From: a virus
Virus record (IMG/VR): IMGVR_UViG_3300037119_005874
Span: 1 to 38,524 of that record
Length of the DNA: 38,524 nucleotides
Strand: one strand, 5' to 3'
Position numbers and translations under genes: made by a program. Positions 22,151 to 38,524 of this stretch are shown here, in pieces (the first letter of the stretch is position 1; each line of letters starts with the position of its first letter). The notes under the pieces were generated by a model. The model searched no databases and was not told the DNA's origin. It worked only from the letters and a program-made list of their open reading frames with translations.

Positions 22151-24918
22151 TTGAGCTCCGCCCAGTTGTTGCCGATGTTGGCCGTAGCCCGGATGGCCAC
22201 GCCGTACTGCTGGGGATCGATCTGGCTGTTCATGATCTCCTCTACCTCTGCTGCGATGTCCTTGGCTTCACCGCGAGGTACAGACAGGATCAACTCGTCG
22301 TGCACCGCCAGACGCAGATAGTCTCCGAGACCGGCAGCCTTGCATCCGATCGCTGAATCCTTGAGAATCGTTGCAGCCCAACCCTGACCACACCAGTTGG
22401 GGAGCACCCTCTTGTCCTTGTGATCCCGCACCCGGAACCGGCGTCCGTTCGGTGTCCAGATCTCGTAGATGCCATCCTTGGTCTTGTTGACCATGGACTG
22501 TCCAGCATCCTTGAATGAGGTGTACCGCTGCTTGAGCGCTCGAATGGTTGGCTGCACCTGTGCAAGGGGGAGGTTTGCCGTCTCTGCGATGGTGCCGTCT
22601 CCACCAGCGTAGATCGTCGCGTAGCAATTTCCGGTGAGCATATCAAGATCGCCCTGGTTCATCGTCCAGGAACCGAGATCAGTTCTGACGCACCAGACCT
22701 GGCCACGTCCGACTTCCTTCCAAGTCAGTTTCTGCGTCGTGACTCCGCCCAGCAAAGGAACTACGGAGTAGTTCGGCTTCTTCATCCACCCAACGCCATC
22801 AGGAACCCTCGTACGCACGCGAACAGCGTTGCCGGAGAGCAGCACCATGGCTCGGTAGAAATCTCGCGTCCAAGGGTCTGACTTGTAAAGTGTCTTCCTG
22901 CCATCGGCCAGATGGATCGATTCCAGAGCAGCAGATCTCTGGGAAGCAGAGAACCCTCCGGCCAGCACCGAGAACGAAGGACGAGTCCCGTCCGCAGTGA
23001 GGAGACCTACTTTGCGGCACAGGTCTCGGGCCCACTCAAATTCGAAGGTGTAGATCTTGTATGCGTCTCCACGAACGACCACACGACAAGGAACCTCCTT
23101 GATCAGGCGATCGATGCGCTCCGTGTGCTTCGACTGCCGGATCTCCATGTAGACGCCCTGACGCTGGCCGTCTTTCCCCTGTGCACGACTACCGTCCAGA
23201 GGAGAGACACGGATATCTCCGTCGGAGAGTGCCCACCCCAGTAGTGCAGCTTCGTCATCGGTGATGTTGAAACCGTCGCCATCATGTTCAGCGGCGAGCT
23301 TGATCCTCCGATGGCTACCAGCTGGACCAGAGAGTTCCTCCGTTGTCTGCCACTGGTGGAGCTCATTCTTCTGGCGATCACTGGTAGTAGCCCATCGATG
23401 GTCCGGCGTGCTGCGTACCTTCCATGTCTTGTTGCCCATCTCAACGATGGGAAGATCGTCGTAGTGAACGACCTCGCGGATCGTTGTCCACTCGGTACGC
23501 CCGGTCAGGTCGTTCAGACCGATTGTCCAGTCTCCGACCACTACCTCATCGTGAGCAAGCCAGCCCCGTTGCGTGAGGATCTTGGTGTCCAGAGGAACGC
23601 AAGTGTTCTTGATCGGGCCACGTCGTGGATCGGACTTCTGAAAGTCTGGCTCATTGAACAAATCTCGTGCCATGAGCACGAAGAAGTCGCCTCCGGTAGC
23701 ATCAGCTTCGTTCAGCATCTGCAACAGGCGCTCATCCTTATTCATGATCGCCCAGGTACGCATCTCTATCTGTCCAAAGTCAGCACCGATCAGGACGTGA
23801 TCCTCGTTGTCCGGCAGGAACGCACGCCGAGCGGTGTGATCGGATGCCGGGAGCTGCTGCAGTGGTGGAGAGGAGACGCTCATCCGGCTGGTCTTCGCGG
23901 CCATGGACCAGATGCTGGGGTGGATGACCTGCGTGCTCAGCTCCCCACCGATCTGCTGGAAGATCTTCATGAGGTAGTCGTTGCGCATCTTCTGCGTCTT
24001 CATGTACTTCAAGCGCAACTGCGCCAACGGATGGTCAATGTTCCGTAGTTGCTTCTTGTCCAGGGAGATGTCCCCGCCATCGGTGAGGCGGCCGAGATCG
24101 AGCACACCAGCTGCCTTCAGGATCTTCAGGCACTCCTGGCGACTGTTCGGGTTTCCCCATCCGGATGCGTCGGCCTGTGCCTTGAGCGCTTCCAGGGCAA
24201 CATCAAGTTCGGAGATCTTGTCTGCCAGGTAGACCCCATCCACCATCATCCCGGTGCGTGACATCTGGTTGGTGATCACAGATGTCGCGATCTCCATATC
24301 GTGGTGCTCAGCGAACTGCTGGCGCCACTCCAGCCACTTCTCCCAGAGCATCGCGGTAGCCACGACGTCAATCACGCCGTACATCGGGTAGGGCTTCCAC
24401 CCCATCGGGATGTCGGTCCAGGTCCAGTTGGCGTTCTTCATACCGGTCTTGAGGATGTCCTCCCCGACCCCGGCCCACGGTCCCAGATGCTTGACCGCTA
24501 GCGGCTTGAGACGGCGACTCTCACCGGCGAACCCGCCCAGGCCAGCCCAGATCTGGGTGTCCTCCTGGCAGGTGGGATCGATGATGATGCCATCCATCCG
24601 CAGCGCTTGAGCGTCATAGCCGAAACCGTTGTGCCACACGTGCTTTGTCCGGGACTTGGAGATCCAGTCGAACGCTCCCTTGACCAGGCCCTTCCACTCC
24701 TGCATCGGGATAGCCCAGCCGCCCTGTGCGTCACCGAACTGCATCATGCGGGTGTGGAACCCCGGTCGGAAGATCTCCAGCTCATGCCCGCCGGGGGTGG
24801 AGCCGGTCTCGATGTCGCAGGCGACGTAACCCTTGGGACGGTGCGTGAGCCACTCCCAGAACGGCGCCATCTTGTCCGGGTGGTCGAGCACCCTGATGGA
24901 GAACTTAGGGACTTCCAT
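22147..24918 (-). CDS. Family A DNA polymerase with 3'-5' exonuclease domain, containing an intein
   Basis: The precursor is 923 residues; about 598 remain after removal of a 325-residue intein (440-764). The start is chosen at ATG 24918, with GAGGAAGG 5 nt upstream. An upstream in-frame ATG at 24969 would put the terminator hairpin inside the gene. The N-terminal DnaQ-like exonuclease shows ExoI (VACDIETG), ExoII (HNGFGYDAQAL) and ExoIII (YGVIDVVAT). Polymerase motifs are A (LIGADFGQIEMR), B/O-helix (RRGPIKNT joined to CYATIYAGG) and C (AVHDELI). It is the replicative or repair polymerase of the phage. It overlaps the dNMP kinase gene, which would supply its substrates. Confidence 0.9.
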   Translation of the reverse strand: MEVPKFSIRVLDHPDKMAPFWEWLTHRPKGYVACDIETGSTPGGHELEIFRPGFHTRMMQFGDAQGGWAIPMQEWKGLVKGAFDWISKSRTKHVWHNGFGYDAQALRMDGIIIDPTCQEDTQIWAGLGGFAGESRRLKPLAVKHLGPWAGVGEDILKTGMKNANWTWTDIPMGWKPYPMYGVIDVVATAMLWEKWLEWRQQFAEHHDMEIATSVITNQMSRTGMMVDGVYLADKISELDVALEALKAQADASGWGNPNSRQECLKILKAAGVLDLGRLTDGGDISLDKKQLRNIDHPLAQLRLKYMKTQKMRNDYLMKIFQQIGGELSTQVIHPSIWSMAAKTSRMSVSSPPLQQLPASDHTARRAFLPDNEDHVLIGADFGQIEMRTWAIMNKDERLLQMLNEADATGGDFFVLMARDLFNEPDFQKSDPRRGPIKNTCVPLDTKILTQRGWLAHDEVVVGDWTIGLNDLTGRTEWTTIREVVHYDDLPIVEMGNKTWKVRSTPDHRWATTSDRQKNELHQWQTTEELSGPAGSHRRIKLAAEHDGDGFNITDDEAALLGWALSDGDIRVSPLDGSRAQGKDGQRQGVYMEIRQSKHTERIDRLIKEVPCRVVVRGDAYKIYTFEFEWARDLCRKVGLLTADGTRPSFSVLAGGFSASQRSAALESIHLADGRKTLYKSDPWTRDFYRAMVLLSGNAVRVRTRVPDGVGWMKKPNYSVVPLLGGVTTQKLTWKEVGRGQVWCVRTDLGSWTMNQGDLDMLTGNCYATIYAGGDGTIAETANLPLAQVQPTIRALKQRYTSFKDAGQSMVNKTKDGIYEIWTPNGRRFRVRDHKDKRVLPNWCGQGWAATILKDSAIGCKAAGLGDYLRLAVHDELILSVPRGEAKDIAAEVEEIMNSQIDPQQYGVAIRATANIGNNWAELK
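22627..23601 (-). other. Intein with LAGLIDADG homing endonuclease in the polymerase O-helix
   Basis: A 325-residue in-frame insertion. It starts with Cys in block A (CVPLDTKILT), followed by block B S-T-P-D-H (intein position ~64-68). Two LAGLIDADG-like dodecapeptides follow (LLGWALSDGD at ~120-129; ALESIHLADG at ~225-234), then a block F-like segment (QVWCVRTDLGSWTM). It ends MLTGN before the +1 Cys of the extein. The penultimate residue is Gly rather than the usual His. The insertion lies inside motif B, right after the catalytic Lys of RRGPIK, so unspliced polymerase should be inactive. Confidence 0.88.
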
Positions 24919-24939
24919 GTTGCCTTCCTCAGAGACGAA

Positions 24940-24967
24940 GCGGCCCGGTCCAAAAGGACCGGGCCGC
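24940..24967 (-). terminator. Strong intra-operon hairpin before the polymerase gene
   Basis: A perfect 12-bp stem, GCGGCCCGGTCC/GGACCGGGCCGC (24940-24951 with 24956-24967), closes a 4-nt loop. It lies 8 nt after the stop of the DUF669-like gene and 21 nt before the polymerase ATG. In the leftward direction it is followed by TTCGTCTC. It can partly end transcription and lower polymerase expression relative to the ssDNA-binding and Sak4-like genes. Confidence 0.65.
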
Positions 24968-24975
24968 AAGGGAAA

Positions 24976-25602
24976 TCAGTTATCGGTTCCCCAGGGATCG
25001 TCCGTGGTGCCCTCGGTGGGTGCAGCCGCCGGAACGGTGACCGGTTCCTTCGCTGCAGCCGGAGGTGGGGTCTCCTCGTCATCCTCCAGCGGCGGCAGGG
25101 AGTTAGCAGCCGGAGGCTGCGCAACTCCGGTCAGGGTCTTGGCCCCGGCCCCGGCCCCGGCGATGTTCGGGTTGGACCCGATGATCGACTTGAGCTGGGT
25201 CTTGGCCCGTTCCACCTCCTGGTAGGTCTCATGCTTGATCGCCGCGACCAACTGCACGTTCTGCGCCAGTTCCGCCATGCGAGCGATCTTGGTGTTGCCG
25301 GTGGCACGCACCCACTCGCTGGTCATCCCCAGCGCCTTCATCTGACGCCAGAAGAACTCGATGCCGGATTGCTTCTGCGAGGAGTAGTAGATGTTGTGGA
25401 TCATCCGTTTGCCCCGGTAGGGCCCGTCGATGATCTCCAGGTGCAGGACGATCGCGGGATTGCCGTTGGAGGACGTGGTGGTGGATGTGGCCACAACCTG
25501 CCAGTTGTAGTCCGCCTCCGGAAGCAGCTTGCTGCCGGTGGCGATGTCATCCATCCCGGCGAGCTCTGCCTCGAAATCGAAATCGCTCTCTTCACCGCTC
25601 AT
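24976..25602 (-). CDS. DUF669-family ssDNA-binding-like protein
   Basis: A 208-residue protein. Residues ~22-125 match the DUF669 pattern: 'LLPEADYNWQVV' (usually 'vpeGtYe.vv'), 'GNPAIVLHLEIIDGPYRGKR', then 'NIYYSS...GIEFFWRQMKALGM'. The last ~80 residues are a disordered Pro/Ala/Glu linker ending in an acidic tail, DDPWGTDN, like the C-terminal tip of SSB proteins that recruits partners. It probably coats ssDNA during phage replication or recombination. The start overlaps the Sak4-like gene stop (ATGA), consistent with a recombinase/SSB pair. SSB activity is inferred. Confidence 0.72.
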   Translation of the reverse strand: MSGEESDFDFEAELAGMDDIATGSKLLPEADYNWQVVATSTTTSSNGNPAIVLHLEIIDGPYRGKRMIHNIYYSSQKQSGIEFFWRQMKALGMTSEWVRATGNTKIARMAELAQNVQLVAAIKHETYQEVERAKTQLKSIIGSNPNIAGAGAGAKTLTGVAQPPAANSLPPLEDDEETPPPAAAKEPVTVPAAAPTEGTTDDPWGTDN

Positions 25603-26471
25603 GCGGATACTCCTTCATCTGTGTTGGCTGCGTCCGGGATCAGCTGGATCGCCGGACGTACTTCGGGCTTGGACATGGTGCCCAAACTCATCGAGAAGGC
25701 TGCCTGGACAATCCTTCTCACGGTGGTGTTGGCCTTGCTGATCGCTTCCAGACTGTCGCCGGTGATGACGTCGAGCCGGAGCGGGTTAGGGACGCGACCG
25801 GAGATCCGGCTGCCCGCCGTGAACTTCACCGGCGCGGTGCCGGATGGTTCGGTGTAGAGGTCACGCACGGTGACCCAGTTGCCCTGTTCCACGACATCGG
25901 ACTTGATCAAGAACGAGTTGACGTCGAACAGGTAGGGCAGCACAGACTTCATCTGCCCCTGCAGGTACGGCTCCCAGACCTTGGTGTCCTCGTTCCGCTT
26001 GGACATCGAGGTGACAACCACCGAGGACAGGGGGTGTCGGGGGTGCTTGGTCAGGTCCCGGACCTTGTTACAGAACGCACGCATGAGCCGCAGCGCCGTC
26101 CCCCAGTCCTGGAGCTTGACCTGGTTCAGCCCGGCGATGGAATCGATGCACTTGTTCTGCAGTTCCGAGATCGAGTCCACGGAAAGGCTTTTGAACGGGT
26201 GCGGCCGGGAGTGAAGGGCTTCGATCGCGTTGACCGCGTCCTTCCAGTCGTTGACCTGGACCACGGCTGTGTCCCAGGTTCCATCGGGTTCCGGAGGTGG
26301 CAGGCTTGGATCCCAGATGATCGACTTGATCGGCAGCAGGTGAGCCGCAGATTCGACGTCGAGCAGCACGCGGGGTGCAGCACCGCTGATCCCGAGCAAG
26401 GACTTACCGGCCTTGCTTTCCCCGTGGACGAGGATCGAGAGGGACTTGTTGAGGGTTCGTGGCTCTGCCAC
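25599..26471 (-). CDS. Sak4-like RecA-fold ATPase (ssDNA annealing/recombinase)
   Basis: About 290 residues from GTG 26471, chosen because AGAAGG lies 6 nt upstream. An alternative GTG at 26507 adds 12 residues and would be coupled to a 6-codon leader. Walker A is G17ESKAGKS24 (VHGESKAGKS). The Walker B-like strand is SLSVDSIS. Family segments 'GTALRLMRAFCNKVRDL', 'VVVTSMSKRNED' and 'PYLQGQMKSVLPYLFD' fit the AAA_24/Sak4 phage recombinase group. It probably loads on or anneals ssDNA with its partner, the DUF669/SSB-like protein encoded immediately downstream. Context with a Cas4-like nuclease upstream supports recombination. Confidence 0.8.
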   Translation of the reverse strand: MAEPRTLNKSLSILVHGESKAGKSLLGISGAAPRVLLDVESAAHLLPIKSIIWDPSLPPPEPDGTWDTAVVQVNDWKDAVNAIEALHSRPHPFKSLSVDSISELQNKCIDSIAGLNQVKLQDWGTALRLMRAFCNKVRDLTKHPRHPLSSVVVTSMSKRNEDTKVWEPYLQGQMKSVLPYLFDVNSFLIKSDVVEQGNWVTVRDLYTEPSGTAPVKFTAGSRISGRVPNPLRLDVITGDSLEAISKANTTVRRIVQAAFSMSLGTMSKPEVRPAIQLIPDAANTDEGVSA

Positions 26472-26503
26472 GGATGACCTTCTTTCACTGGCGGTAACTG
26501 GAA

Positions 26504-26524
26504 TCACGCACAGTGGCTGGCCAT
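26504..26524 (-). promoter_or_regulatory. Six-codon upstream ORF (leader peptide) before the Sak4-like gene
   Basis: GAAAGGAGG, a near-perfect Shine-Dalgarno, precedes ATG 26524, which opens only MASHCA and a stop. The stop (TGA 26506-26504) overlaps a GTG at 26507 in frame with the Sak4-like ORF (GTGA). This could couple or throttle translation of the operon. Confidence 0.35.
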
Positions 26525-26566
26525 AGGCTCCCTCCTTTCGCAGGGGAAGCAGAGCACAAGGCTCCG

Positions 26567-26587
26567 GGGTGAAGGGTGAAGGGTGAA
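26567..26587 (+). repeat. Three tandem GGGTGAA heptamers
   Basis: Exact 7-bp unit repeated three times (26567-26573, 26574-26580, 26581-26587), directly abutting the GTTGA of the palindromic promoter-like element. It would lie in the 5' leader of the leftward transcript. It could be a protein-binding site, an RNA element or a slippage product. Confidence 0.7.
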
Positions 26588-26621
26588 GTTGAGTGAATAC
26601 TCTATATTACTCTAATTCAAG
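26588..26621. promoter_or_regulatory. Palindromic double GTTGA-N10-TATA element upstream of the Sak4-like gene
   Basis: Plus strand: GTTGA (26588-26592), 10 bp, TATATT (26603-26608). Minus strand: CTTGA (26621-26617), 10 bp, TATAGA (26606-26601). The two share the TATA core, giving an imperfect palindrome. The minus-strand TGA is the stop of gene 26617-26802, as in the other elements. The leftward copy would give a start near 26594 and a ~120-nt leader. The rightward copy has no convincing gene. Confidence 0.4.
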
Positions 26622-26802
26622 GACGATGCAACTTCGCTCGCAGACTCGATTCCCACTCCATCTGCTCAGCGTGTCGGATGGCCTCTTGCCACGCACGCCA
26701 GGTCGCCATGATCTCTTGATCAGTCCCTACCCAAAGTAGCCACCGTGATCTATCGGTGTTGTCAAGAGCATCAAGTAAAACTCTCGTCATCAGATTGATC
26801 AT
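26617..26802 (-). CDS. Small helical hypothetical protein (61 aa)
   Basis: ATG at 26802 overlaps the stop of the Cas4-like gene (ATGA). The 61-residue product is predicted to be helical and Trp-rich (DRSRWLLWVGTDQEIMATWRAWQEAIRHAEQ) with a basic end (SSLRAKLHRP). Its stop codon sits inside the CTTGA of the palindromic promoter element. No family is recognised. The operon position suggests an accessory factor for the nuclease or recombinase. Confidence 0.6.
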   Translation of the reverse strand: MINLMTRVLLDALDNTDRSRWLLWVGTDQEIMATWRAWQEAIRHAEQMEWESSLRAKLHRP

Positions 26803-27764
26803 TGGAAGCCTAAGCCTTCCAACGTATTTGACGGATCGTCCTCATACCGCTGCAGTGGATTGCCGGTCACGTAGAGATCGAGCAACATGCGATCAGCTCC
26901 GGAGAAGTTCCCCTCCTGCATCTCGGTGCAGGGCAACTTGAAAGGACAGGTCTTGCACTGCCAGCTGGGATGGTACGGAGCCACCTTGAGGTGAGAGGCA
27001 CCCCGATCCAGCCGGTCGACCACCGACGCAATCTGGGAGATCTCAGCGGTGGCGTTCTCCAGCGCGGCGTTCAGCTTGGCCTCGGAGAACGGCACCATCA
27101 GCCGGTCGTAGTAGGGCGGCTTGCTTCTAGGTCCACGCAGCACCTTGCGGAGCTGAGTCAGGATGCCACCGGCTACCCACGTCTCCGGGGCGTCCCGGCG
27201 GGCCAGGATCGTGTAGAGCGGGAGCTGTGACTCCGACAGTCTGGCCTGGATCGAGTCCTCGGTCAGGGAGCTGGTCGTCTTGTAGTCCTCAGCAAACAGG
27301 GCCCCGTCGGAGTTGCGCTGGCTGAGTAGATCGAGTTTGCCGCGCAGCACGACGTCCACCTCCTGCCCATCACTGAGACGGATCGTGAGAGTGGTGGAGA
27401 GCTTCTTCTCGATCCCGATCACGGTCCAGTTGGCGAAAATGCCCTCAGACTCCAGAAAATCCTGGAAGCCCTCCAGCATCACCTGGCCCATGGCGGACTC
27501 CTTGTCCAAGCCATCTGACCAGCCGAGCTCCTCTGCGATCTCGAACTCACGCTCCATCAGCTTCTTCCAGATCGTCGTCGGCATGATTCGCCAACCACTC
27601 TCTCCGAACAGCTGAAGCGCGAGGTGCACACGGGAACCGAAGGGTAGGGCCCCGGTCCGGGGTTGTGTCAGGGGTTGTAGGCCGAGGTACTGGCCGAGGT
27701 ACCCCAGCCGGGGACACACCGACCAGGTCTTCAGGGAGGAGTAGGACACGGCTTTGAGCGGCAT
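26799..27764 (-). CDS. Cas4/RecB-like PD-(D/E)XK nuclease with Fe-S cluster motif
   Basis: The start is placed at ATG 27764 (MPLKAVSYSS...), giving 321 residues. The open frame continues to 28112 but there overlaps the divergent promoter and gene. Nuclease core: H47 in FGSRVHLAL, D145 in GKLDLL, D160-Y-K162 in AEDYKT, and the QxxxY motif Q180-LPL-Y184. One Cys near the N-terminus (C17) and three near the C-terminus (C270-x2-C273-x5-C279) match the four-Cys iron-sulfur cluster of AddB/Cas4-type exonucleases. It probably resects DNA ends to feed the Sak4-like recombinase. No clear ribosome binding site is seen before 27764. CRISPR involvement is not suggested by anything nearby. Confidence 0.82.
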   Translation of the reverse strand: MPLKAVSYSSLKTWSVCPRLGYLGQYLGLQPLTQPRTGALPFGSRVHLALQLFGESGWRIMPTTIWKKLMEREFEIAEELGWSDGLDKESAMGQVMLEGFQDFLESEGIFANWTVIGIEKKLSTTLTIRLSDGQEVDVVLRGKLDLLSQRNSDGALFAEDYKTTSSLTEDSIQARLSESQLPLYTILARRDAPETWVAGGILTQLRKVLRGPRSKPPYYDRLMVPFSEAKLNAALENATAEISQIASVVDRLDRGASHLKVAPYHPSWQCKTCPFKLPCTEMQEGNFSGADRMLLDLYVTGNPLQRYEDDPSNTLEGLGFQ

Positions 27765-27788
27765 GCCACGAGTGAAGCACGATCCGGT

Positions 27789-27812
27789 CTTGTTGACAAG
27801 TCGCTCTATATT
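27789..27812 (+). promoter_or_regulatory. GTTGA-N10-TATATT promoter-like element in the divergent region
   Basis: GTTGA (27792-27796), a 10-bp spacer and TATATT (27807-27812), then 15 nt to ATG 27828 with no ribosome binding site. The GTTGA lies in a small inverted repeat, CTTGT-TG-ACAAG (27789-27800), a possible operator. On the minus strand the same site reads AATATAGA and could serve the leftward nuclease gene. The 9-mer CTCTATATT is shared with the element at 26601. Confidence 0.55.
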
Positions 27813-27827
27813 CCGTACCTTTACGCC

Positions 27828-28100
27828 ATGCCATCCAAGGTCCAGACCTTCATCCGAGTTGTGCCGAGTCAACACAATCCAGGACACGCGGTCATCGAGA
27901 AGGCCTACCGGGAAGACGTCCCGGCCTTCAACACCATCGCAGTCCGCTGGGAAGACATACCGGACCTGATCACCAAACTCCGGCGCGCCCATACGCAACA
28001 TCACGCTGCTGTGGAGAAGGCACAGCTGGACGCTGATGGCACCGTTGCAGCGGTCCTCCTGCAAACCCACAACGCCGCCGCCCCCGGCGACCTGTTCTAA
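27828..28100 (+). CDS. Hypothetical protein, first gene of the short rightward operon
   Basis: A 90-residue protein with ATG ~10 nt after the predicted start point of the GTTGA/TATATT element and no Shine-Dalgarno. Pattern: a beta strand region (KVQTFIRVVPSQHNPGHAVIE), a short linker, then a long helix (DLITKLRRAHTQHHAAVEKAQLDADGTVAAVLLQ). It resembles small phage proteins of unknown role. It is followed 17 nt later by the VWA gene with its own RBS (ACGAAAGG). No function is assigned. Confidence 0.62.
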   Translation: MPSKVQTFIRVVPSQHNPGHAVIEKAYREDVPAFNTIAVRWEDIPDLITKLRRAHTQHHAAVEKAQLDADGTVAAVLLQTHNAAAPGDLF

Positions 28101-28117
28101 CGAAAGGCCCACCGAGC

Positions 28118-28906
28118 ATGCCGATCAACATGGAAAAACGGACCGAGATCGCCAAAGAGTCCCTGGTCTCCCTGCTCAAAACTGAGAGTGGCAAAGGCAA
28201 CGACCTGGGAGAACTCACCGCACAGATTCGTCTCGCGGAGGACTACTCCGGTTCGATGGCACGGTTCTACGCCAGTGGTGAGATGCAGGAGCTGACCGAA
28301 CGCGTCCTCGCACTCTCCCTGACTGGACTGGACGCAGATGGCGACATCCAGGTCTATCACTTCGACCATCAGGTGTACGAGCCCTACACCGTAGACATCA
28401 ACCACTATGTCGGAGCAGTCGATCGGTGGCGCTTCGAGGAAGTTACCGTTCAGGTGCCAGGACAGAAGAAGATGTTCGGCAAGGTCTCTGCTCCCACCAC
28501 ACGGGTCGAGAAGGTGGAACGGCAGATGGGAGGTACCGATTACGCTCCCTGCATCCGCAAGATTCGCCAAGATGCACGAGACTCTGGTGACCTGGCTCCA
28601 GGAAAACCGCCGGTCATCGTGGTGTTCCAGACCGACGGCGGAACCTCCAGCCCAGCGAACACCATTGCAGAGCTTCGAGACTCGTCCAAGGATCCGATCT
28701 TCTGGGTGTTTCTTGGGCTTGGCAACAACACCGGGTTCTTGGACGTGCTGGACAAGATCGACGGTGGAAGGGTGGACAACGTCAGCAAGATCAGTGTCAC
28801 CTCGATCAAAAGCGTCCCGGATGCTGACTTCTACGCGGAGTTGATCCGTGAACCCTTCTCCAAGTGGCTCCCGGCTGCGCGGGCGCTGGGCATCGTTACG
28901 GTTTGA
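28118..28906 (+). CDS. VWA-domain protein with intact MIDAS
   Basis: A 262-residue protein, nearly all one von Willebrand factor A domain of the type seen in tellurium-resistance (TerF-like) proteins. The metal-ion-dependent adhesion site is complete: D42-x-S44-x-S46 (DYSGS), T140 (GGT140DY) and D173 (FQTDGGTS). Strand FWVFLGLGN follows the last MIDAS residue. A leading ~38-residue segment is helical. VWA proteins bind partners through a divalent metal and often work with ATPases. None is encoded in this short operon, so the partner is unknown. The stop is 3 nt from the next ATG. Confidence 0.78.
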   Translation: MPINMEKRTEIAKESLVSLLKTESGKGNDLGELTAQIRLAEDYSGSMARFYASGEMQELTERVLALSLTGLDADGDIQVYHFDHQVYEPYTVDINHYVGAVDRWRFEEVTVQVPGQKKMFGKVSAPTTRVEKVERQMGGTDYAPCIRKIRQDARDSGDLAPGKPPVIVVFQTDGGTSSPANTIAELRDSSKDPIFWVFLGLGNNTGFLDVLDKIDGGRVDNVSKISVTSIKSVPDADFYAELIREPFSKWLPAARALGIVTV

Positions 28907-28909
28907 CCT

Positions 28910-29713
28910 ATGCCCTGCTCTCCGAAGATGAACCAGTGCAAGTCCTCCTGCCTGCACCGCAGGTTCGTCATGGACTACCGATCAGAGCGCCTGCGGCAAG
29001 AAACAGACCTGATCGAGAGCAACTACGGTTACGCCACAGAGATTGCGGACGATCTACGTATAAGGGCGGAAAACGGAACACCGTTGATCGACTTCCGCAC
29101 CTGGCTCAAGGGCCACCGCAACCTACCCCCGGAGGAACCAGTGACTGCTCCCGTTGTAGAGATGGAGTACGGCAACAAGCTCGCAGAGGAAACACTGCTG
29201 GCCGTCGCAATGCGGGAGCCATCCGTAGTATGGATGATCAACGACATCGGTCCGCAAGCGTTCCTTGCCTCTCCGCTGAACTCCCTGATCGCAGAAGCGA
29301 TCATCAACCTGGAGCGCGACGGGATCCGCGCACACTGGGGGAACGTGGAGACCTACCTGGAGAAGCACCACATCCCGCCGATTTACGAGAACGGCACAAA
29401 GTACGGCCTGCGTCACTGGCATGATCACGCAGGTCCAGCCATCTTTGCGCAGGGAGCGGCCGACGACGTCCGTCTCCACTACACCGCCTACCAGGCAGAA
29501 AGAGTCCTGACATGGGGTACGACAATGATGCGCAAACACATCATGGAGGGTCCGACATCACAAGGGATCAAGGACATCCACTCCCAGATCCAGCAACAGA
29601 TGGAGGACCTGGGAGTAACCCCACAGGCTCCGGAGCCGATTATGGGGCTGACCCCACGCTCACAGGCGTTGCTGAGACCGCGCCCGCTGGCTTCTACACG
29701 GAAAAGGACGTAG
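28910..29713 (+). CDS. DnaB N-terminal-domain-like protein without helicase domain
   Basis: A 267-residue protein. Residues ~85-200 resemble the DnaB helicase N-terminal domain: KLAEETLLAVAMREPSVVWM, 'PQAFLASPLNSLIAEAIINLERDG', 'VETYLEKHHIPPIY'. The RecA-type motor that normally follows is absent. The first 19 residues carry three Cys (C3, C10, C14). An internal ATG at codon 21 is an alternative start. The C-terminus is basic (PRSQALLRPRPLASTRKRT). It may interact with the primase or helicase of phage or host, for example as a loader or decoy. That role is inference. Confidence 0.65.
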   Translation: MPCSPKMNQCKSSCLHRRFVMDYRSERLRQETDLIESNYGYATEIADDLRIRAENGTPLIDFRTWLKGHRNLPPEEPVTAPVVEMEYGNKLAEETLLAVAMREPSVVWMINDIGPQAFLASPLNSLIAEAIINLERDGIRAHWGNVETYLEKHHIPPIYENGTKYGLRHWHDHAGPAIFAQGAADDVRLHYTAYQAERVLTWGTTMMRKHIMEGPTSQGIKDIHSQIQQQMEDLGVTPQAPEPIMGLTPRSQALLRPRPLASTRKRT

Positions 29714-29720
29714 ACGATCG

Positions 29721-29972
29721 ATGGTAGGAACACCTGAAGCTGCCCAGAAGGCTCAGGCGACCAGGCTGGCCAAGCAGCAGACAGCTGCCAAGAGCACTGG
29801 GTTTCCGAATGGCACCACGGTAAAGGTCAACACCCCACGGGAGAGGCACTACCACGGGCGAATCGGAACGGTAGAAACGCACAATCTTGGTGAGATCGGC
29901 GTGACCTTCGCCAGCAACACCCTGATCTGGTTCCGCGCCGACCAGCTGGTAAAGCAGAACGCCCCCGCGTGA
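29721..29972 (+). CDS. Small KOW/SH3-like protein
   Basis: An 83-residue protein with GGAAAAGGACG upstream. The N-terminal ~25 residues are a charged helix. Residues ~28-78 read as a small beta barrel: 'GTTVKVNTPRERHYHGRIGTV' then 'EIGVTFASNTLIWFRADQL'. This resembles the KOW motif ('G..V.V......G..G.V') of RNA- or DNA-associated SH3-like folds. The stop codon is in the loop of the following terminator hairpin. It could be a transcription or nucleic-acid accessory protein. Confidence 0.65.
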   Translation: MVGTPEAAQKAQATRLAKQQTAAKSTGFPNGTTVKVNTPRERHYHGRIGTVETHNLGEIGVTFASNTLIWFRADQLVKQNAPA

Positions 29973-29990
29973 GACTCGCGGGGGCGTTCT
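29956..29990. terminator. Bidirectional terminator between convergent operons
   Basis: A perfect 14-bp GC-rich stem, AGAACGCCCCCGCG (29956-29969) with CGCGGGGGCGTTCT (29977-29990), and a 7-nt loop that contains the TGA of gene 29721-29972. It lies between two convergent operons and can serve both strands. Confidence 0.75.
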
Positions 29991-30000
29991 TCGGGCCGGA

Positions 30001-30609
30001 TCAGGCAGGTTCGACGTTACCGTCCACCGGCTGCGGATTCTCCGGATTTTCCGGGGTGGGCTCTGGCGTCGGTTCCGGAGTCGGCTCGGGCTCCACCGGA
30101 GGAGCTGGCTCCTCAGGGGTGGGCTCCGGCTCCGGCTCCACCGGCGGCGCGGGCTCTTCCGGGGTCTCCGGGACCTCGACGGCAGCAGTCTGAGCGTCCA
30201 GGGCCTCGGCCTTGGTCACCAGGTCGGACAACGCCGCGTTGTTGGCATCGGTCAGCTCCTGGACAGCAGCCTGAACGGCGGCCTGGGTCTCAGCGGTGTT
30301 GTCCGCGACAGCCGCATCGAGAGCGGTCTGCAGCGAATCCAGCCGAGTCGCGAAATCGGTCTGAGCCGCGACGGCCGCATCCTTGAGCCCGTTGATATCG
30401 TTCTGGATGTTGTCCAGAGCGGTGTTCAGTCGTTCGACACTGGTCACGAGTTCCCTCATTTCTGTTTGAAGCGTCCCGACCGCTTCGGCCAAGATCAGCT
30501 GTCCTTCGTGAAGATTACTCACCAAAACCGCTAGTGCATCCTGCTGTGCCAGCAGGCGCTTGAGCCCCTTGACCTTGACCTTCACGGGGATGGAGAGATC
30601 GGACATCAC
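30001..30609 (-). CDS. Coiled-coil protein with Pro-Glu repeat tail, end of the lysis cassette
   Basis: A 202-residue protein starting at GTG 30609 (GTGA overlap with the transglycosylase-like gene) or ATG 30606. Residues ~20-135 form a long coiled coil (LVTSVERLNTALDNIQNDIN..., AAVQELTDANNAALSDL). The last ~65 residues are a Pro/Glu repeat, with PEEPAPPVEPEP present twice and then PTPEPTPEPTPE. It has no transmembrane segment or signal peptide. Last gene of the leftward lysis/tail operon. It may be a cell-wall-spanning or scaffold-like accessory. The function is unknown. Confidence 0.65.
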   Translation of the reverse strand: MMSDLSIPVKVKVKGLKRLLAQQDALAVLVSNLHEGQLILAEAVGTLQTEMRELVTSVERLNTALDNIQNDINGLKDAAVAAQTDFATRLDSLQTALDAAVADNTAETQAAVQAAVQELTDANNAALSDLVTKAEALDAQTAAVEVPETPEEPAPPVEPEPEPTPEEPAPPVEPEPTPEPTPEPTPENPENPQPVDGNVEPA

Positions 30610-31124
30610 ACACCCCCATCTGTGTAGTAACGCGGGTTCTTCTCCATGGCCAGCGTCTGCACCTCACGGTCTTTGTAGTTTTGCGCGTAAGGGTACGGCT
30701 TGCCGGTTCTGGAGTCGATCTTCACACCGTCATACTGCGACTGTTGTACCCGTTGGGCAACGTCCCAATCCTCCAGGCTCATCCACGCGGGAGCCTTGAC
30801 CAGCATCTGCTCCAGGAATCTGGTGGCCGCCACCCAGGGATCCATGGACCCTTGCGTGGTCCCCCAGTACTGCGAACGCTGCTGTAGCAGGCCTACCGAG
30901 TTGAGGTCTTTCCCGACACCATCATTCGGATACTTCAGGCTCTCCGGCACCGAGTTGTTGGCCAGGTTCAGCCAGTCGCTCTCGGTGAAGATCGTGCGGT
31001 ACAGGATCCTCTTGGCCTTCACCCTGGGAACGGAACTCCACGGGGTGGGACGGGAGTCTCCGAAGTCATCGACTGCCTTGTCCACCTGCTCGCGGTAGCG
31101 ATCCCGCCGGTCGATCACCGGCAC
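30606..31124 (-). CDS. Lytic transglycosylase / lysozyme-like protein
   Basis: A 172-residue protein starting at GTG (TAGTG overlap with the M15 endolysin gene). Residues ~45-90 fit the lysozyme-like fold: E48 in IFTESDWLN as the probable catalytic acid, then NSVGLLQQRSQYWG, the actinobacterial version of 'dSlGLfQQrp..gWG' seen in transglycosylases and resuscitation-type lysozymes. 'AATRFLEQML' and 'DWDVAQRVQQSQYDG' are the downstream helices. It would cleave glycan strands of peptidoglycan, complementing the neighbouring peptidase. It could act in lysis or in DNA entry. Confidence 0.72.
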   Translation of the reverse strand: MPVIDRRDRYREQVDKAVDDFGDSRPTPWSSVPRVKAKRILYRTIFTESDWLNLANNSVPESLKYPNDGVGKDLNSVGLLQQRSQYWGTTQGSMDPWVAATRFLEQMLVKAPAWMSLEDWDVAQRVQQSQYDGVKIDSRTGKPYPYAQNYKDREVQTLAMEKNPRYYTDGGV

Positions 31125-32227
31125 TACGATTTTGGGGCGTTCAGCACCTGCCCGACTTCGATCTGGTCCACGTTGGTGACCTGTGGGTTCGCGGCCTTGA
31201 GCGCGTCCACGGAGACACCGAGCTTCTTGGCGATCCCAGAGAAGGTATCCCCCGCGACCACGGTGTAGGTCTCAACAGGTGTAGGTGTGGTGACTGCGTC
31301 CGGTCCGGGGAGGCTCCCGGACTCCCCACGTCCACCGAACGCTCCGGGAAGATTGACGTCACCGCCGGGCCAGGTCAGAACCTTCTTCCCTGAGGCCTCG
31401 GCCACCATCTTGAGACCTTCAAGGGTTTCCACGTCAGGGATCGGACGAGAAACCCCGGCCTCGGACCACCAGAGACCTGTCCCATCCTGGTACAGGACGA
31501 CGTCGTACTCACTGACCTCGGTGAGGATCCGCTCCAGCAGAGCCTGCTGTCCCTTGCCCCGGTTCCAGATGTCTGCAATCACATCGGTGAGGAACAAGCC
31601 ATCGACCTTGCCACTGCGGCCGAGCGTCTCCTCCAGAGCCTCCTTCATGACCTGCTTCGCGCGTGCCTCGTCCACGGTGTCCCACCAATCCTTCTCTGGC
31701 TCTGGGATGTTCGGTGTTCCCGGGACGGGGATGTTCCCACCCGGCAGGGTTGCTGCTACTGCGGAGACCTTCGCTGCGGAGCCGTTGATCTCGAAGTGCA
31801 TGGGGTCGTTGCCGGTCAACCAACGAACGGTGCCCTGCAAAGTCCCGAGAATGGACTGGATCTTCTGGTACTGAGAGCCACTCCAGCCACCGCCACCGTT
31901 GGGACCGGTAGATGTCCCATTTGCGTGTTTTGTGGCGTTATAGTCTATTGCCGTACCACTGGCGTGACAGCTCAGAGTGGAGGGGTTGTTGACATTCGCA
32001 CGGTAGGCGTAGCCCCAGCATCCATACCCGAGTTTCCCCGTGCCAGGGTCGACCATCATGGGCTCGACCTCATTGTGCAGCCGAGTGATCAGGTAGGTGA
32101 AGATCTTCTCGACGTCCCCGGCCTTCACGCCGCTGGGGAAGGCCGCTCCGAGGACCCTGAAGTTGGTGTTGATACCGATGGCGGCGGCACTAGGACTGGC
32201 TTGCCATCCGTTGTAGCTGTTCGCCAC
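31124..32227 (-). CDS. lysA: Endolysin: M15 (VanY-like) peptidase with C-terminal LysM
   Basis: A 367-residue protein starting at GTG 32227, with AGGAGG 6 nt upstream. Residues ~35-150 form a D-Ala-D-Ala carboxypeptidase-like domain with zinc ligands H88 and D95 (SCHASGTAIDYN) and H144 in DPMHFE, the M15 signature. A linker and helical region follow (~175-300). Residues ~322-366 are a LysM motif (YTVVAGDTFSGIAKKLGVSV...NPQVTNVDQIEVGQVL), which binds peptidoglycan. It is most likely the main endolysin cutting the peptide cross-bridges. It overlaps the transglycosylase-like gene downstream and follows two membrane-protein genes. Confidence 0.85.
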   Translation of the reverse strand: MANSYNGWQASPSAAAIGINTNFRVLGAAFPSGVKAGDVEKIFTYLITRLHNEVEPMMVDPGTGKLGYGCWGYAYRANVNNPSTLSCHASGTAIDYNATKHANGTSTGPNGGGGWSGSQYQKIQSILGTLQGTVRWLTGNDPMHFEINGSAAKVSAVAATLPGGNIPVPGTPNIPEPEKDWWDTVDEARAKQVMKEALEETLGRSGKVDGLFLTDVIADIWNRGKGQQALLERILTEVSEYDVVLYQDGTGLWWSEAGVSRPIPDVETLEGLKMVAEASGKKVLTWPGGDVNLPGAFGGRGESGSLPGPDAVTTPTPVETYTVVAGDTFSGIAKKLGVSVDALKAANPQVTNVDQIEVGQVLNAPKS

Positions 32228-32237
32228 CGGACCTCCT

Positions 32238-32702
32238 CTACGGCCTCAGGTTCTGAAGAGCCTCGGCCTGCTGACGGATCAAGGTGAGCGCGTTTTGCAG
32301 CTCGCTGCGTGCCTGTCCGAGTTCAGTGCGGCAGGCGTTGAGCATGGCTTCCAGCTCGACTTGACGTGCCTGCAACTCCCTGATGCTAGCGTCACGCTCT
32401 CGGATGGTGGCGTCCTTCTCAGCTATGGCCTCTCTGTGAACGATCTTGGTCTCCGAATACTCTTCCTGAATCCCCCGCAGTTGAGTTCGCACTCGTTCCA
32501 TCTGCTCTTCCTGCTGAGCGGCCCTCGCGCGTACCTTTTCGAGCTCGTCAGCGATCTTCTCCCGTTCGGTCCCCAAGACCGTGACCATTGCTTGATCGAT
32601 CTTGATTCTCTCATTTTTCGCCGACCGTCTGGCGGCATACACAGTGCCCGACCCTGTGATAAGGGCAACCACGATCAGAGCAACGGCCTGTTCGATGGTC
32701 AT
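32238..32702 (-). CDS. Membrane-anchored coiled-coil protein (lysis-associated)
   Basis: A 154-residue protein with one N-terminal transmembrane helix (residues ~5-23, AVALIVVALITGSGTVYAA) followed by a basic stop and an uninterrupted coiled coil to the end (EREKIADELEKVRARAAQQEEQ and onwards). It lies between the probable holin and the endolysin, with 10-nt spacing to the endolysin. One-helix proteins in this place can be second holins, antiholins or spanin-like. A Gram-positive host makes a true spanin unlikely. Confidence 0.7.
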   Translation of the reverse strand: MTIEQAVALIVVALITGSGTVYAARRSAKNERIKIDQAMVTVLGTEREKIADELEKVRARAAQQEEQMERVRTQLRGIQEEYSETKIVHREAIAEKDATIRERDASIRELQARQVELEAMLNACRTELGQARSELQNALTLIRQQAEALQNLRP

Positions 32703-32707
32703 GTCAG

Positions 32708-33289
32708 CTACTCCGGCTCCCGGTGCTCACACTGGAGTCGGAGGGCTTCGTTCTCCGCCGCCATCATGAGCAATCCTTGCTCTAGCTCGCGCACGCGGTC
32801 TTCCGCGCGTTCCCGGAGCCAGATCTCATGTGTCTTGCGAAGACCCTGGACGACCCCGGCCGAGAGCACCAACCCCGTCAGTATGAGGCGTAGGCCGATG
32901 AGAAGATCCGCCGTTTGTCTGTCGTCATCTGGAGCGAACAGCGCGCTGAATAGGTAGATGAGCCCCCACACCCACCAGAGCATCATCACAGCGAAGGCAG
33001 CGAGGCGGTCCCAGTCCGGATGCCGGTGGCCGGTGAAGGCCACGCCGACAGCTGTCAGGCCGACGATCATCCAGATCCAGCCCCAGAACATGATGAAGAT
33101 AGGTCCAAGTTCCAGGAACAGCCATGCCGTCGGGCCGATTCCCCAGACGTAAGAACTGCCCTGCAAGGCTGTCGTCAACCCCACCCCGGCGAGGTAGACG
33201 GTCCGTGCATCCGGCTGGTCCGGCGGAGAACGGAAGAGATAATTCGACCACCCCGGCTCACCGAAGATGAAGTTCTTGATCCGCCCCAC
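32708..33289 (-). CDS. Four-helix membrane protein, candidate holin
   Basis: The start is set at GTG 33289 (GGGAG 7 nt upstream). The longer frame to 33391 would overlap the previous gene. The product is 193 residues, with transmembrane segments near residues 30-48, 52-86 (probably two, LFLELGPIFIMFWGWIWMIVGL), 95-118 (FAVMMLWWVWGLIYLFSALF) and 128-148 (LLIGLRLILTGLVLSAGVV). A soluble coiled-coil tail follows (REELEQG-like, RVRELEQGLLMMAAENEAL). Its place next to the endolysin genes makes it the best holin candidate. It is larger than most holins, so another membrane role is possible. Confidence 0.65.
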   Translation of the reverse strand: MGRIKNFIFGEPGWSNYLFRSPPDQPDARTVYLAGVGLTTALQGSSYVWGIGPTAWLFLELGPIFIMFWGWIWMIVGLTAVGVAFTGHRHPDWDRLAAFAVMMLWWVWGLIYLFSALFAPDDDRQTADLLIGLRLILTGLVLSAGVVQGLRKTHEIWLRERAEDRVRELEQGLLMMAAENEALRLQCEHREPE

Positions 33290-33347
33290 GATGGACTCCC
33301 TACGGTGAGTCGTTGCTGTCCCCCGAAGTATTCCCGACAACGGCGAG

Positions 33348-33824
33348 TCAACGCGACGTAACAGAAAGCCATCCGTCGAATACTGCATCATTCATTCGGA
33401 CCTGGCTGACCACGTGCTCCACCAGCGCTGTCGGTCGCTGCGTGCGGTTGAGCAGGGCCTGATACAGCTGTTCGGGGTCACGAGCGCGCAAAACGGTGTA
33501 TCGGGTAGCTTCGAGCACTGTCTGCGGGTCCATGTGGTCACCTACCTCCGGTAGGCATTCGAGACACGGCACCCGATGGACTTGTGCTTCCTCTCCAGCT
33601 TCGAGCCAGGTAGGCATCTCGGGATAGACACGAGAGCAATCCGGACGGTGTGCCACCAGGCTCCGGCCGATCTTCCACACCACGTACTGCTTGCTCTGGG
33701 TGAGTCGATAGACGATCAGTTCGCTCCATCGGGGAGCTCCGGCCCGCTGGGAGGTGGCGGTTGCCAGAACGTCCGCCTCGAAGCGGAGCACCTGCGCTCC
33801 GTCGCGAACTGTTCGGATGGTCAT
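33348..33824 (-). CDS. Hypothetical protein with Cys/His site
   Basis: A 158-residue protein whose ATG overlaps the HTH gene stop (ATGA). The N-terminal half is beta rich (ATSQRAGAPRWSELIVYRLTQSKQYVVWKIGRSLVAH). H84-like and Cys residues follow (HRPDCSRV... then VPCLECLP), suggesting a metal site. The C-terminal half is helical (PEQLYQALLNRTQRPTALVE). Similar proteins are common in actinophages, with no known role. It is followed by a 58-nt gap before the membrane protein. Confidence 0.62.
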   Translation of the reverse strand: MTIRTVRDGAQVLRFEADVLATATSQRAGAPRWSELIVYRLTQSKQYVVWKIGRSLVAHRPDCSRVYPEMPTWLEAGEEAQVHRVPCLECLPEVGDHMDPQTVLEATRYTVLRARDPEQLYQALLNRTQRPTALVEHVVSQVRMNDAVFDGWLSVTSR

Positions 33825-34084
33825 GCCTTCACATACTTCCCTGCACCTTTGCCACGAAGCGGTCCTCCGGGGGTGGGAATTCGCTGGACGAGTCCCCTGC
33901 TGTTCATGACCTTGAGCCTGGCGTGCACCTGACTAAGAGACTTGGCGGCCTCCTTGGTCCCCTCCCATATCTCTCGTGGCTCCCGCGCCCGACCATCTTC
34001 AAGAAGAAGGAGGATCGCTTCATCCAAAGGGGTGGTCGGGCCGACGAAAACCGGCTCCTGGCGTTCGGTGATCTGTCTCAACAT
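33821..34084 (-). CDS. Small winged-helix protein from a leaderless promoter
   Basis: An 88-residue protein. The ATG at 34084 is exactly 6 nt after TATAAT and has no ribosome binding site. The in-frame ATG at 34150 lies inside the previous gene and is not favoured. The sequence fits a winged helix: DEAILLLLEDGRAREPREIWEGT (helices 1-2), KEAAKSLSQVHARLKVMNSRGLVQRI (recognition helix and strand), then a basic wing, GGPLRGKGAGKYVKA. It is probably a DNA-binding regulator placed inside the late operon but with its own promoter. Confidence 0.7.
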   Translation of the reverse strand: MLRQITERQEPVFVGPTTPLDEAILLLLEDGRAREPREIWEGTKEAAKSLSQVHARLKVMNSRGLVQRIPTPGGPLRGKGAGKYVKA

Positions 34085-34111
34085 GATCGGATTATAGTCC
34101 GTTCGATCAAC
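34085..34111 (-). promoter_or_regulatory. GTTGA-N10-TATAAT-N6-ATG leaderless promoter-like element
   Basis: Minus strand: GTTGA (34111-34107), a 10-bp spacer, TATAAT (34096-34091; a perfect -10), CCGATC, ATG at 34084. The TGA (34109-34107) is the stop of the minor tail gene. The 7-mer GTTGATC and the hexamer CCGAYC are also found in the element at 19088, showing a common origin or constraint. No -35 consensus lies at the usual distance (CACCTA). Confidence 0.62.
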
Positions 34112-34844
34112 TGTAGGTGCCGATGCGAATGATTGAGCACGGAGCGACATCCACCAGAGCCATCTGGTTCACACTCACCGTGGAGTCATTCGTGCGGGGA
34201 ACCCGGAACAGCCCCGGATCATCCACTGAGGAAAGTGAGACCTTGATCGGTCCAGTCCAGAACACCCTGGGGTTCGCACTGTCATAGCCGCCGTTGATGA
34301 CGACCTTGTCTCCCCAGAGGTTCTTGTCCTGCCCGGCCAGCAGGATCCCAGCTCGTCCCAGAGCTGGAGCGATGCTCGGCGGCACGTGCATGATCGGATG
34401 CACCCCGGCACCGACCACGGTATCCACCCAGAGCTTGCGGCCAGCTGCGACGCTGTCGCCTTTGGTGGCATCAGAGGTGGTCGTCCAGGTGACGGATCGG
34501 ACGTCGGCGTGCCCGGTGTAGCTGTCGGTCCCGGTGATGGCCTGAACGACCAGGGCCCGCCCGATCACGATCTCGTTGTGCTCCTGCAGCGCCTTGATCG
34601 TCCACTCAGTGTCATCGGGCTGCTCACATGTCACCGATCGCTGCAGCAGGGCCTCATAGAAGAAGGGCTTGGTGACGTAGGTACTCGCGCGGGAGTCTTC
34701 ATCACCGACGACATCCCCAGAGGTGTCCTCACAGGGGTCGGTGAGCCTGATCCACGCACCACACTCCCGTGCGACTCGGTTCTCTCCCACGTAATTCAGC
34801 CGCTCCGCGCCGCCAGTCACTTCTGCGACATCCAACAGGTCCAT
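34107..34844 (-). CDS. Minor tail / virion structural protein
   Basis: A 245-residue protein with RBS GGAAGAGGG. It reads as a mixed alpha/beta protein: 'RVARECGAWIRLTDPCED', 'FFYEALLQRSVTCEQ', 'GRALVVQAITGTDSYTGH', 'VGAGVHPIMHVPPSIAPALGRAGILLAG', 'NPRVFWTGPIKVSLSSVDD'. Related genes sit downstream of the baseplate hub in actinophage tail operons, where they are called minor tail proteins. The exact role is unknown. Its stop codon is embedded in a GTTGA promoter-like element. Confidence 0.65.
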   Translation of the reverse strand: MDLLDVAEVTGGAERLNYVGENRVARECGAWIRLTDPCEDTSGDVVGDEDSRASTYVTKPFFYEALLQRSVTCEQPDDTEWTIKALQEHNEIVIGRALVVQAITGTDSYTGHADVRSVTWTTTSDATKGDSVAAGRKLWVDTVVGAGVHPIMHVPPSIAPALGRAGILLAGQDKNLWGDKVVINGGYDSANPRVFWTGPIKVSLSSVDDPGLFRVPRTNDSTVSVNQMALVDVAPCSIIRIGTYS

Positions 34845-34868
34845 GTCAGCCCTCTTCCATTTCTGTCG

Positions 34869-35552
34869 TCACATCGTCACAGATAGTGGCGTCACTCGTA
34901 CACGGCCGGTCCCGGAGTACGTCCCGGATTGTCCACTACTGTGCAGCCCGAAACCATTGATCGTCCCGTTGATCAAATCAAGACCCCAGCCGATCGGCAG
35001 TGAGACCCAGCTGAGCACCCCGGCCGCAGGACGGGGTACTCGCCAGATGAACTCCGACTCCGCCAGCACTCCGGACGCCGACGCGGATCGATGATTGATG
35101 AACTCCGGCGGCCCTCCGTCCAGGAGGTTGATCTCGATCTCCACCTTCTCCACCATGACCGTGCGCAGTGCCACCGCGTTGTAGCCCCAAGCACCGACAA
35201 GTCCAGGGCCTTGATTAATAACACCGGGCTGCCACGTCTGCGAGGCGATGTCGTAGGTGGCGCTGTACAGCGGATTCAGGATGATCGGAGTCTGTGGGAC
35301 CAGGGGAGCTGGCGCCGCCAGTGGGGTACTGCTCGATCCGAGCACCAGGGTGCCCTGGCCCTGCAGGGACAGGGCGTGGACAACGTCTCCTTCAACGGGA
35401 GTGTAGTGATCCAGAGTGCCGACCCCGGGGATGAACCCACCGAGGTATTCGAGGATGACAGAGCCGTCAGGGTTGACGCTGTACACCCTGGCCTTGATCC
35501 ACTTCAGGGAAGGTCCACCGATACCGGTGAGGTAGTTCTCCAGCAGTGTCAT
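34869..35552 (-). CDS. Minor tail protein with N-terminal OB-like domain
   Basis: A 227-residue protein whose start shares bases with the hub gene stop. Residues ~18-75 (KARVYSVNPDGSVILEYLGG, then 'HYTPVEGDVVHALSLQGQGTLVLG') match the OB-fold 'v..v..dg.v.v...G.....v...y.p..GD.V.v' seen in phage baseplate spike and hub-associated proteins. The C-terminal ~140 residues form a beta-rich domain (VMVEKVEIEINLLDGGP...). Probably a tail-tip component next to the hub. Assignment is from pattern and gene order. Confidence 0.7.
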   Translation of the reverse strand: MTLLENYLTGIGGPSLKWIKARVYSVNPDGSVILEYLGGFIPGVGTLDHYTPVEGDVVHALSLQGQGTLVLGSSSTPLAAPAPLVPQTPIILNPLYSATYDIASQTWQPGVINQGPGLVGAWGYNAVALRTVMVEKVEIEINLLDGGPPEFINHRSASASGVLAESEFIWRVPRPAAGVLSWVSLPIGWGLDLINGTINGFGLHSSGQSGTYSGTGRVRVTPLSVTM

Positions 35553-38154: not shown

Positions 38155-38524
38155 TAGAATCTCCCGTTCCGGGCGTTGCGTGCGGTCTGGTCATTGGATC
38201 GTTCTACCTGAACGTTGATCATGTCGGTCAGTTCCCGGTCTCCGATGAACACCCGAACCTGGGTGTTGCCACCTACCGCCCCGGAACCGGCGAGCTTGTT
38301 GATGATGGCGTGGTCACGCTGGGAGAGACCGGTGGGGTCGAGGGGCTCGACTCGTTCCGCCTGCCCGGCTTCCGCGATGGTACGGAGTTGTCCGCCAGGG
38401 GTCGGCCGGAAAATACCGCCTTCTGCGGTAGCTGGTGCAAAGGCGTAGTCAGATCCGGAAGTAGCAGCGATAGCATCCGCCGACGCACTGACAGCACTAT
38501 TAATACTGTCAATAATTCCAGATC
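38155..38524 (-). CDS. Tape-measure protein, C-terminal fragment (5' end outside window)
   Basis: An open frame without a start runs from the right edge to TAG at 38157-38155, about 122 codons. The segment TPGGQLRTIAEAGQAERVEP followed by LDPTGLSQRDHAIINKLAG matches the well-conserved end of siphovirus tape-measure proteins ('...vaEaGpEvvvPL...g..r...l...lag'), and the last residues (VFIGDRELTDMINVQVERS) form the usual final beta strand and helix. It sets tail length in virions. It is followed directly by the distal-tail gene, as in other siphoviruses. Confidence 0.8.

Follow-up and report, generated by a model that had tools for sequence, protein, structure and literature searches.

The N-terminal domain of the replicative helicase DnaB (PF00772; DnaB-N) is the surface that binds primase and the helicase loader. 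Here we analyse an operon of four genes on the + strand (27828-29972), one of which is predicted to encode this domain without the helicase motor, together with a VWA protein and a KOW-like protein. The operon lies in the IMG/VR record IMGVR_UViG_3300037119_005874, a fragment of an uncultured bacteriophage of 38,524 bases (G+C 61%, completeness not established), which was analysed as a whole and is referred to as the window. The host is probably an actinobacterium; the nearest named phages, judged by the exonuclease, have Gordonia, Microbacterium and Arthrobacter as hosts (31-35% identity).

Half a DnaB has been described from actinobacterial phages before: the D29 Gp65-type DnaB relatives of mycobacteriophages have the motor and lack the N-terminal domain (PMC4523182), the reverse of the window protein. 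The helicase-loading step that is proposed here as the point of action is also reported to be the step affected by lambda P (PMC3640518, PMC4926192) and by a Staphylococcus aureus phage protein acting on DnaI (PMC4887207). Compared with DnaB itself, the window protein has the predicted head helices and C-terminal helical hairpin of the N-terminal domain, and differs in having no RecA-like motor and in an extra N-terminal Cys/His module. To our knowledge, neither lambda P nor the DnaI-targeting phage protein is a DnaB-N homologue. The VWA protein of the operon resembles Ter stress-response and phage-inhibition proteins, since it matches the vWA-TerF-like family with an intact metal ion-dependent adhesion site (MIDAS); unlike in Ter systems, it stands alone without TerD and is slotted beside the DnaB-N gene. 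MoxR-VWA chaperone pairs also contain a MIDAS VWA, but the window lacks a MoxR-type ATPase and its VWA is of the TerF type. TerF-type genes and Ter operons have been described for jumbo phages, and phage Ter proteins including TerF were proposed by Iyer and colleagues to act against rival phages (PMC7824862). The best-ranked literature matches, largely without subscription journals, held no description of a motorless DnaB-N phage protein or of this operon.

The DnaB-N gene (28910-29713, +) encodes a protein of 267 aa with a Cys/His module at residues 1-80, a predicted DnaB-N head and helical hairpin at residues ~87-235 and no RecA motor. Against a profile of DnaB-N from 10 phage DnaBs, residues ~87-235 scored 17.2 bits and ranked fifth among 7,142 open reading frames (ORFs), the four above it being true DnaB helicases; none of 5,000 shuffles reached this value, the best scoring 11.5 bits. 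Alignment to DnaB-N by hhalign gave an E-value of 8.9e-5 over 138 columns, yet a probability of just 31.7%. Pfam showed no match to the window protein at E <= 1, and a PF00772 search found none anywhere in the window at E <= 10. The orthologue on the 107-kb contig of a relative, L069, exceeded the PF00772 cut-off of 23 both in the six-frame search (29.8 bits) and in the protein search (27.6 bits), and matched the phrog_19 DnaB-like helicase with E 3.5e-4. This orthologue is 33% identical to the window protein, has the same N-terminal module, is likewise without a motor, and contains a long insert that separates the head from the hairpin. With this orthologue the doubt over the DnaB-N assignment is mostly settled, and the sequence comparisons support the 267-aa protein as a motorless DnaB-N protein.

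The structure model used for the fold search was an AlphaFold model of the window and L069 sequences only, with no DnaB sequence included (mean predicted local distance difference test score, pLDDT, 60.9); from an earlier single-sequence model (mean pLDDT 41.8) the helix pattern alone was taken. In Foldseek, DnaB-type chains occupied ranks 1-17 among 350,542 PDB chains, with the N-terminal domain of M. tuberculosis DnaB on top. Fourteen of these 17 chains are titled DnaB, and the other three (2r6e, 2vye, 2r6a) we take to be DnaB-type helicases. No DnaB_C motor (PF03796) was detected at E <= 10 in the window record or in the 107-kb contig of L069, while the control for this search was positive in 14/14 genomes. 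The absence from the window is weak evidence because the record is a fragment; the 107 kb of L069 are stronger. The preliminary description of this locus, made from the letters alone, had called the protein a DnaB N-domain without motor, and the orthologue above the PF00772 cut-off, the local profile, the fold search and the lack of DnaB_C support this reading.

The N-terminal module belongs to phrog_7933 (E 7.3e-13). Modules of this type occur in 95 phage records (tblastn, E <= 1), almost all of Gordonia and Mycobacterium; in the five records opened, it either makes up a short protein by itself or closes a short annotated ORF at the C-terminus, and in none is DnaB-N attached to it. C3, C10 and H16 are identical in the six sequences aligned, and the candidate fourth ligand is H7 in most of them and C14 in the window. 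In view of this conservation with a shifting fourth ligand, the module possibly binds metal. When viral_contigs was scanned with the DnaB-N, the VWA or the KOW-like protein as single query, no relatives were found, nor did any emerge from a scan of genome_contigs with the window DnaB-N protein as query, and a genome_contigs scan with the alignment of window and L069 proteins returned only a free-standing N-module of 69 aa on a Micrococcales metagenome-assembled genome scaffold. By tblastn in phages, the whole protein had no match at E <= 1e-3 and the DnaB-N part of L069 none at E <= 0.1; the DnaB-N part of the window protein alone had one match at E 3, apparently unrelated. The operon proteins had no match in NCBIfam and PADLOC. 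At the DNA level, positions 20000-38524 had no match in 50,697 phage records in a near-DNA search, and positions 27600-30100 had none among plasmids in a distant-DNA search.

Relatives of the locus were obtained by scanning viral_contigs with PolA and with the divergent neighbour of the operon, a Cas4/PD-(D/E)XK exonuclease (26799-27764, -) that served as anchor. They are L066 (5.1 kb), L068 (7.3 kb) and L069; a fourth scan match, L067, with only 62 exonuclease residues matched, was left out. In L068 a gene of ~79 aa (phrog_419) is followed by the gene 1 homologue and immediately by the DnaB-N gene, with which the contig stops. L069 has the order 65-aa gene (its C-terminus resembling that of gene 1), 264-aa protein, 159-aa phrog_2693 protein, DnaB-N, KOW-like and then lysis genes as in the window, and the L066 contig stops inside gene 1. 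The VWA family PF10138 is absent from all three, including the whole 107 kb of L069. In the relatives seen, the conserved unit is gene 1 - DnaB-N - KOW-like. Because the slot between gene 1 and DnaB-N is empty in L068 and occupied by two unrelated genes in L069, different guests can use this position and the VWA is exchangeable cargo, as seen in two informative relatives. Linkage in relatives, which the preliminary description had named as decisive for its operon, therefore holds for DnaB-N and KOW-like, which remain together, and fails for the VWA, which is absent or replaced.

The 264-aa slot gene of L069 has a sorting region of the LAXTG type, matched in NCBIfam at E 3.8e-5 with a score under the cut-off. 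The protein at L069 6316-7107 (-) shows a signal-like start, a Thr-rich middle, a LAYTG motif, a hydrophobic stretch and a basic tail; it resembles a sortase-anchored surface protein and occupies the slot used by the VWA in the window.

The VWA gene (28118-28906, +) encodes 262 aa of the vWA-TerF-like family (phrog_5359; PF10138 E 4.5e-38, 131.9 bits with a cut-off of 29.4, residues 35-260). The MIDAS residues D42, S44, S46, T140 and D173 are identical in 8/8 aligned phage proteins, confirming the intact MIDAS noted before, and both DxSGS and [TS]DG are present in 48 of 50 VWA proteins, the window one included. VWA relatives were found in 191 of the 50,697 phage records (tblastn, E <= 1e-3), every one with <60% identity. 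As a reference, 49 VWA loci were compared (seven opened phage records and 42 fetched IMG/VR loci) with flanks of 6-10 kb each, less at contig ends. No relative of gene 1, DnaB-N or the KOW-like protein was near the VWA at any of these loci (0/49, blastp E <= 1). TerD (PF02342) was found in 10 of the 49 reference records, in nine of which it lies no more than 2 kb from the VWA (L030, L032, L038, L039, L040, L042, L045, L046, L008). It is absent from the window and the L069 record, and no further Ter gene was recognised among the window proteins scanned. The window record, itself a fragment whose completeness is uncertain, has no MoxR-type AAA_3 (PF07726). Overall this family occurs in one of 51 records, which is one of the 49 reference records and has it at a distance from the VWA. 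Since only 1/49 VWA phages has a MoxR-type ATPase, a TerF-type VWA without ATPase is the rule. The earlier observation that no partner ATPase is present was thus correct, but as a clue to function it was rejected.

Some further features of VWA loci were noted. In Streptomyces phage Psst1 the second gene downstream of the VWA is DprA-like (L002 6966-7967). Near the VWA in 18 of 50 loci including the window (e.g. L050 8809-9504), a family was seen whose Cys pattern, judged by eye, resembles that of WhiB; the cluster may contain shadow-frame ORFs. The idea that VWA phages also carry a motorless DnaB-N was not borne out: PF00772 was present in 10 of 54 records, in ORFs of 432-671 aa with one exception. 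This exception (L062, 239 aa) looks like a frameshift-broken full DnaB that, by eye, retains Walker A.

Gene 1 (27828-28100, +; 90 aa, family unassigned) has a clear homologue in L068 and a partial one in L066, and had no match in phages at E <= 1. The KOW-like gene (29721-29972, +; 83 aa, KOW/SH3-like) had been assigned from the sequence alone; the G/V spacing and the L069 homologue (38% identity) speak for the call, but Pfam gave no match at E <= 1 for the protein of the window or of L069. The two homologues share G-R-x-G-x-V and HNxGExGV, and a viral_contigs scan with both of them returned the L069 contig only.

At the junction of the DnaB-N and KOW-like genes, a stretch in the -1 frame (29633-29727, +) ends with TEKDVDDRW-stop and overlaps the start of the KOW-like gene as ATGGTAG; both features are common to the window and L069 (4794-4900, -). 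All four base differences between window and L069 in this block lie at third positions and are synonymous in the -1 frame, the chance of which for four random differences is ~0.007 for a given frame and ~0.02 for any frame. Codon scores are positive in all four operon frames, a partly circular result, as the VWA gene and the greater part of the DnaB-N gene were in the training set. A codon model trained without the cassette agreed with the DnaB-N frame up to ~29633; from there on the score prefers the -1 frame in the window, as it does for the final ten or so codons in L069. This signal could reflect frameshifting by -1, translation of a short coupled ORF, or conservation of a ribosome-binding region. 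A frameshift product of the DnaB-N gene is possible at 29633-29727 and at the L069 stretch; for a short coupled ORF, an ATG is present there in L069 and there is none in the window.

Upstream of gene 1 a promoter-like element, GTTGAC-N10-ATANT, is located at 27792-27812 (+). The pattern occurs twice in the window versus 0.00 expected from 100 shuffles, with none for the reversed-pattern control, and its position between the exonuclease and the first opposite-strand gene is kept in 3/3 relatives, so that the GTTGA element formerly assigned to the first gene is well founded. The 107-kb contig of L069 holds another copy elsewhere, and matches were found in two of the 49 VWA loci (L007, L013). A sigma-70 promoter with 16-18 spacing was considered and rejected, as none was found in 18300-38000 and the gap between GTTGAC and ATANT is 10 bases. 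The second window copy (18449-18469) lies ahead of a lone + strand gene at 18476-18811, which encodes 111 aa and has this element in common with the operon. The L069 homologue of its product is weak (30.7%, E 1e-5), and the GTTGAC sequence upstream of it is similar and one base shorter. Directly after the KOW-like gene, a hairpin terminator between convergent operons (29957-29992) has a 14-bp stem (AACGCCCCCGCG / CGCGGGGGCGTT) and -30.7 kcal/mol.

The operon is isolated, as first described: its four + strand genes stand between the - strand exonuclease and a - strand gene on the far side (30001-30609), with replication genes on one side and lysis/tail genes on the other, all on the - strand. 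The replication genes comprise the exonuclease, a Sak4-like RecA protein, DUF669, PolA, a dNMP kinase and an SNF2 helicase, and a RuvC-like protein called by eye without a family match. The RecA-like protein is encoded at 25599-26507. Further away, downstream of a PrimPol gene, lies a gene for a DUF3987 protein with a P-loop (2745-4529, +), the candidate replication motor of the phage itself; DUF3987 was found in both the window and the L069 record. The PolA gene (22147-24969) contains a 326-residue insert at 22624-23601 (-), with a Cys at its start and another just after its end. This insert is intein-like, has no counterpart at the corresponding site of L066, L068 and L069, and had no match to Pfam or NCBIfam inteins.

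We tentatively favour an early accessory operon in which the DnaB-N protein serves as a decoy or adaptor for host replication and the VWA is a separate Ter-type factor. In this reading, the likeliest of those considered, the DnaB-N protein would act on host primase, loader or DnaB; its timing, partners and effect we infer. The operon, of an early type by inferred timing, would be an accessory one in a group of actinobacterial phages, placed beside their replication module. The phage-specific promoter element would drive the core gene 1 - DnaB-N - KOW-like, which the terminator would close. The DnaB-N protein would present the DnaB collar without motor to the host replication machinery and compete for host DnaG, a DciA-type loader or DnaB, so that host replication would be diverted or blocked, while phage DNA would be copied by the phage's own PrimPol/DUF3987/PolA. 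The VWA would act apart, through its metal-binding MIDAS, in Ter-type host modification or superinfection exclusion.

Several results weigh against this picture. In Foldseek the best E-value was no lower than 0.083 and the TM-scores of the DnaB rows were low (0.24-0.29), and VIA-align 2 aligned only the hairpin, with generic hairpins and no DnaB among the best 50 matches listed. PDB sequence searches with the window protein or a two-row profile gave nothing convincing, and with the L069 protein DnaB (2r5u) appeared at E 0.34, ranked under seven unrelated chains. The likeness of L069 to gene 1 is confined to the C-terminus (...APGDLS), and just three relatives were found, two of them the short contigs of 5.1 and 7.3 kb. 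Finally, the place beside the replication genes and the conservation of DnaB-N fit a replication subunit equally well.

Such a subunit could take the form of a helicase in two proteins, with DnaB-N forming the collar in trans for the DUF3987 or the RecA-like motor at 25599-26507 and recruiting host primase or holding the phage replisome together. We regard this as possible, though doubtful. It agrees with the presence of DUF3987 and the absence of DnaB_C in both phage records, with the DnaB-N gene staying by the replication module in both L068 and L069, and with replication genes surrounding the N-terminal module in one phage of Gordonia and one of Mycobacterium; DnaB relatives consisting of the RecA core only exist in mycobacteriophages (PMC4523182). 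However, the gene sits in its own opposite-strand operon with small uncharacterised genes, outside the replication operon, and a PrimPol phage may not need host primase. This separation from the replication operon, and the phage's own PrimPol, DUF3987 and PolA, are why we place the decoy or adaptor slightly ahead of a two-protein helicase. In a related and rather unlikely variant, a separate DnaB collar with a Cys/His module, perhaps with a second C-terminus in the -1 frame, would serve a non-DnaB motor (DUF3987) or capture host primase.

Less probable still is a moron-type cargo cassette, in which the DnaB-N fold would be reused as a plain protein- or DNA-binding domain in superinfection exclusion, like the VWA. 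The own promoter and terminator, the opposite orientation, the swappable genes and the surface-protein-like gene in the L069 slot would all suit a cassette of this kind. This pattern fits the VWA but not DnaB-N and KOW-like, which keep their place beside the replication module in the relatives seen.

We consider it improbable that the 267-aa protein is a decaying DnaB remnant or that its likeness is a common helical arrangement only. The missing Pfam match of the window protein, the weak E-values of the fold search and the generic hairpins of VIA-align point in that direction; they are opposed by the L069 protein, with the same truncated architecture and N-module at 33% identity and above the PF00772 cut-off, and by an intact frame with coding signal and no residual motor sequence.

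One dedicated system, in which VWA, DnaB-N and KOW-like would hijack or inhibit host helicase and transcription as suggested in the preliminary description, is very improbable and was rejected: despite the shared operon and promoter element in the window phage, the VWA is missing from the L068 slot and from the whole L069 contig, and none of the 49 reference loci has a relative of gene 1, DnaB-N or KOW-like nearby (blastp E <= 1).

After the four-gene system falls, what remains is a real, slightly unusual motorless DnaB-N protein. A DnaB collar without motor, kept in phages that have no recognisable DnaB motor in the available sequence, mirrors the motor-only relatives of mycobacteriophages. 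It offers a case in which two ideas can be tested, takeover of host replication via the collar surface or a two-protein helicase. The VWA, as exchangeable TerF-type cargo, is no part of a new helicase system and belongs with the phage Ter genes, which still lack an explanation.

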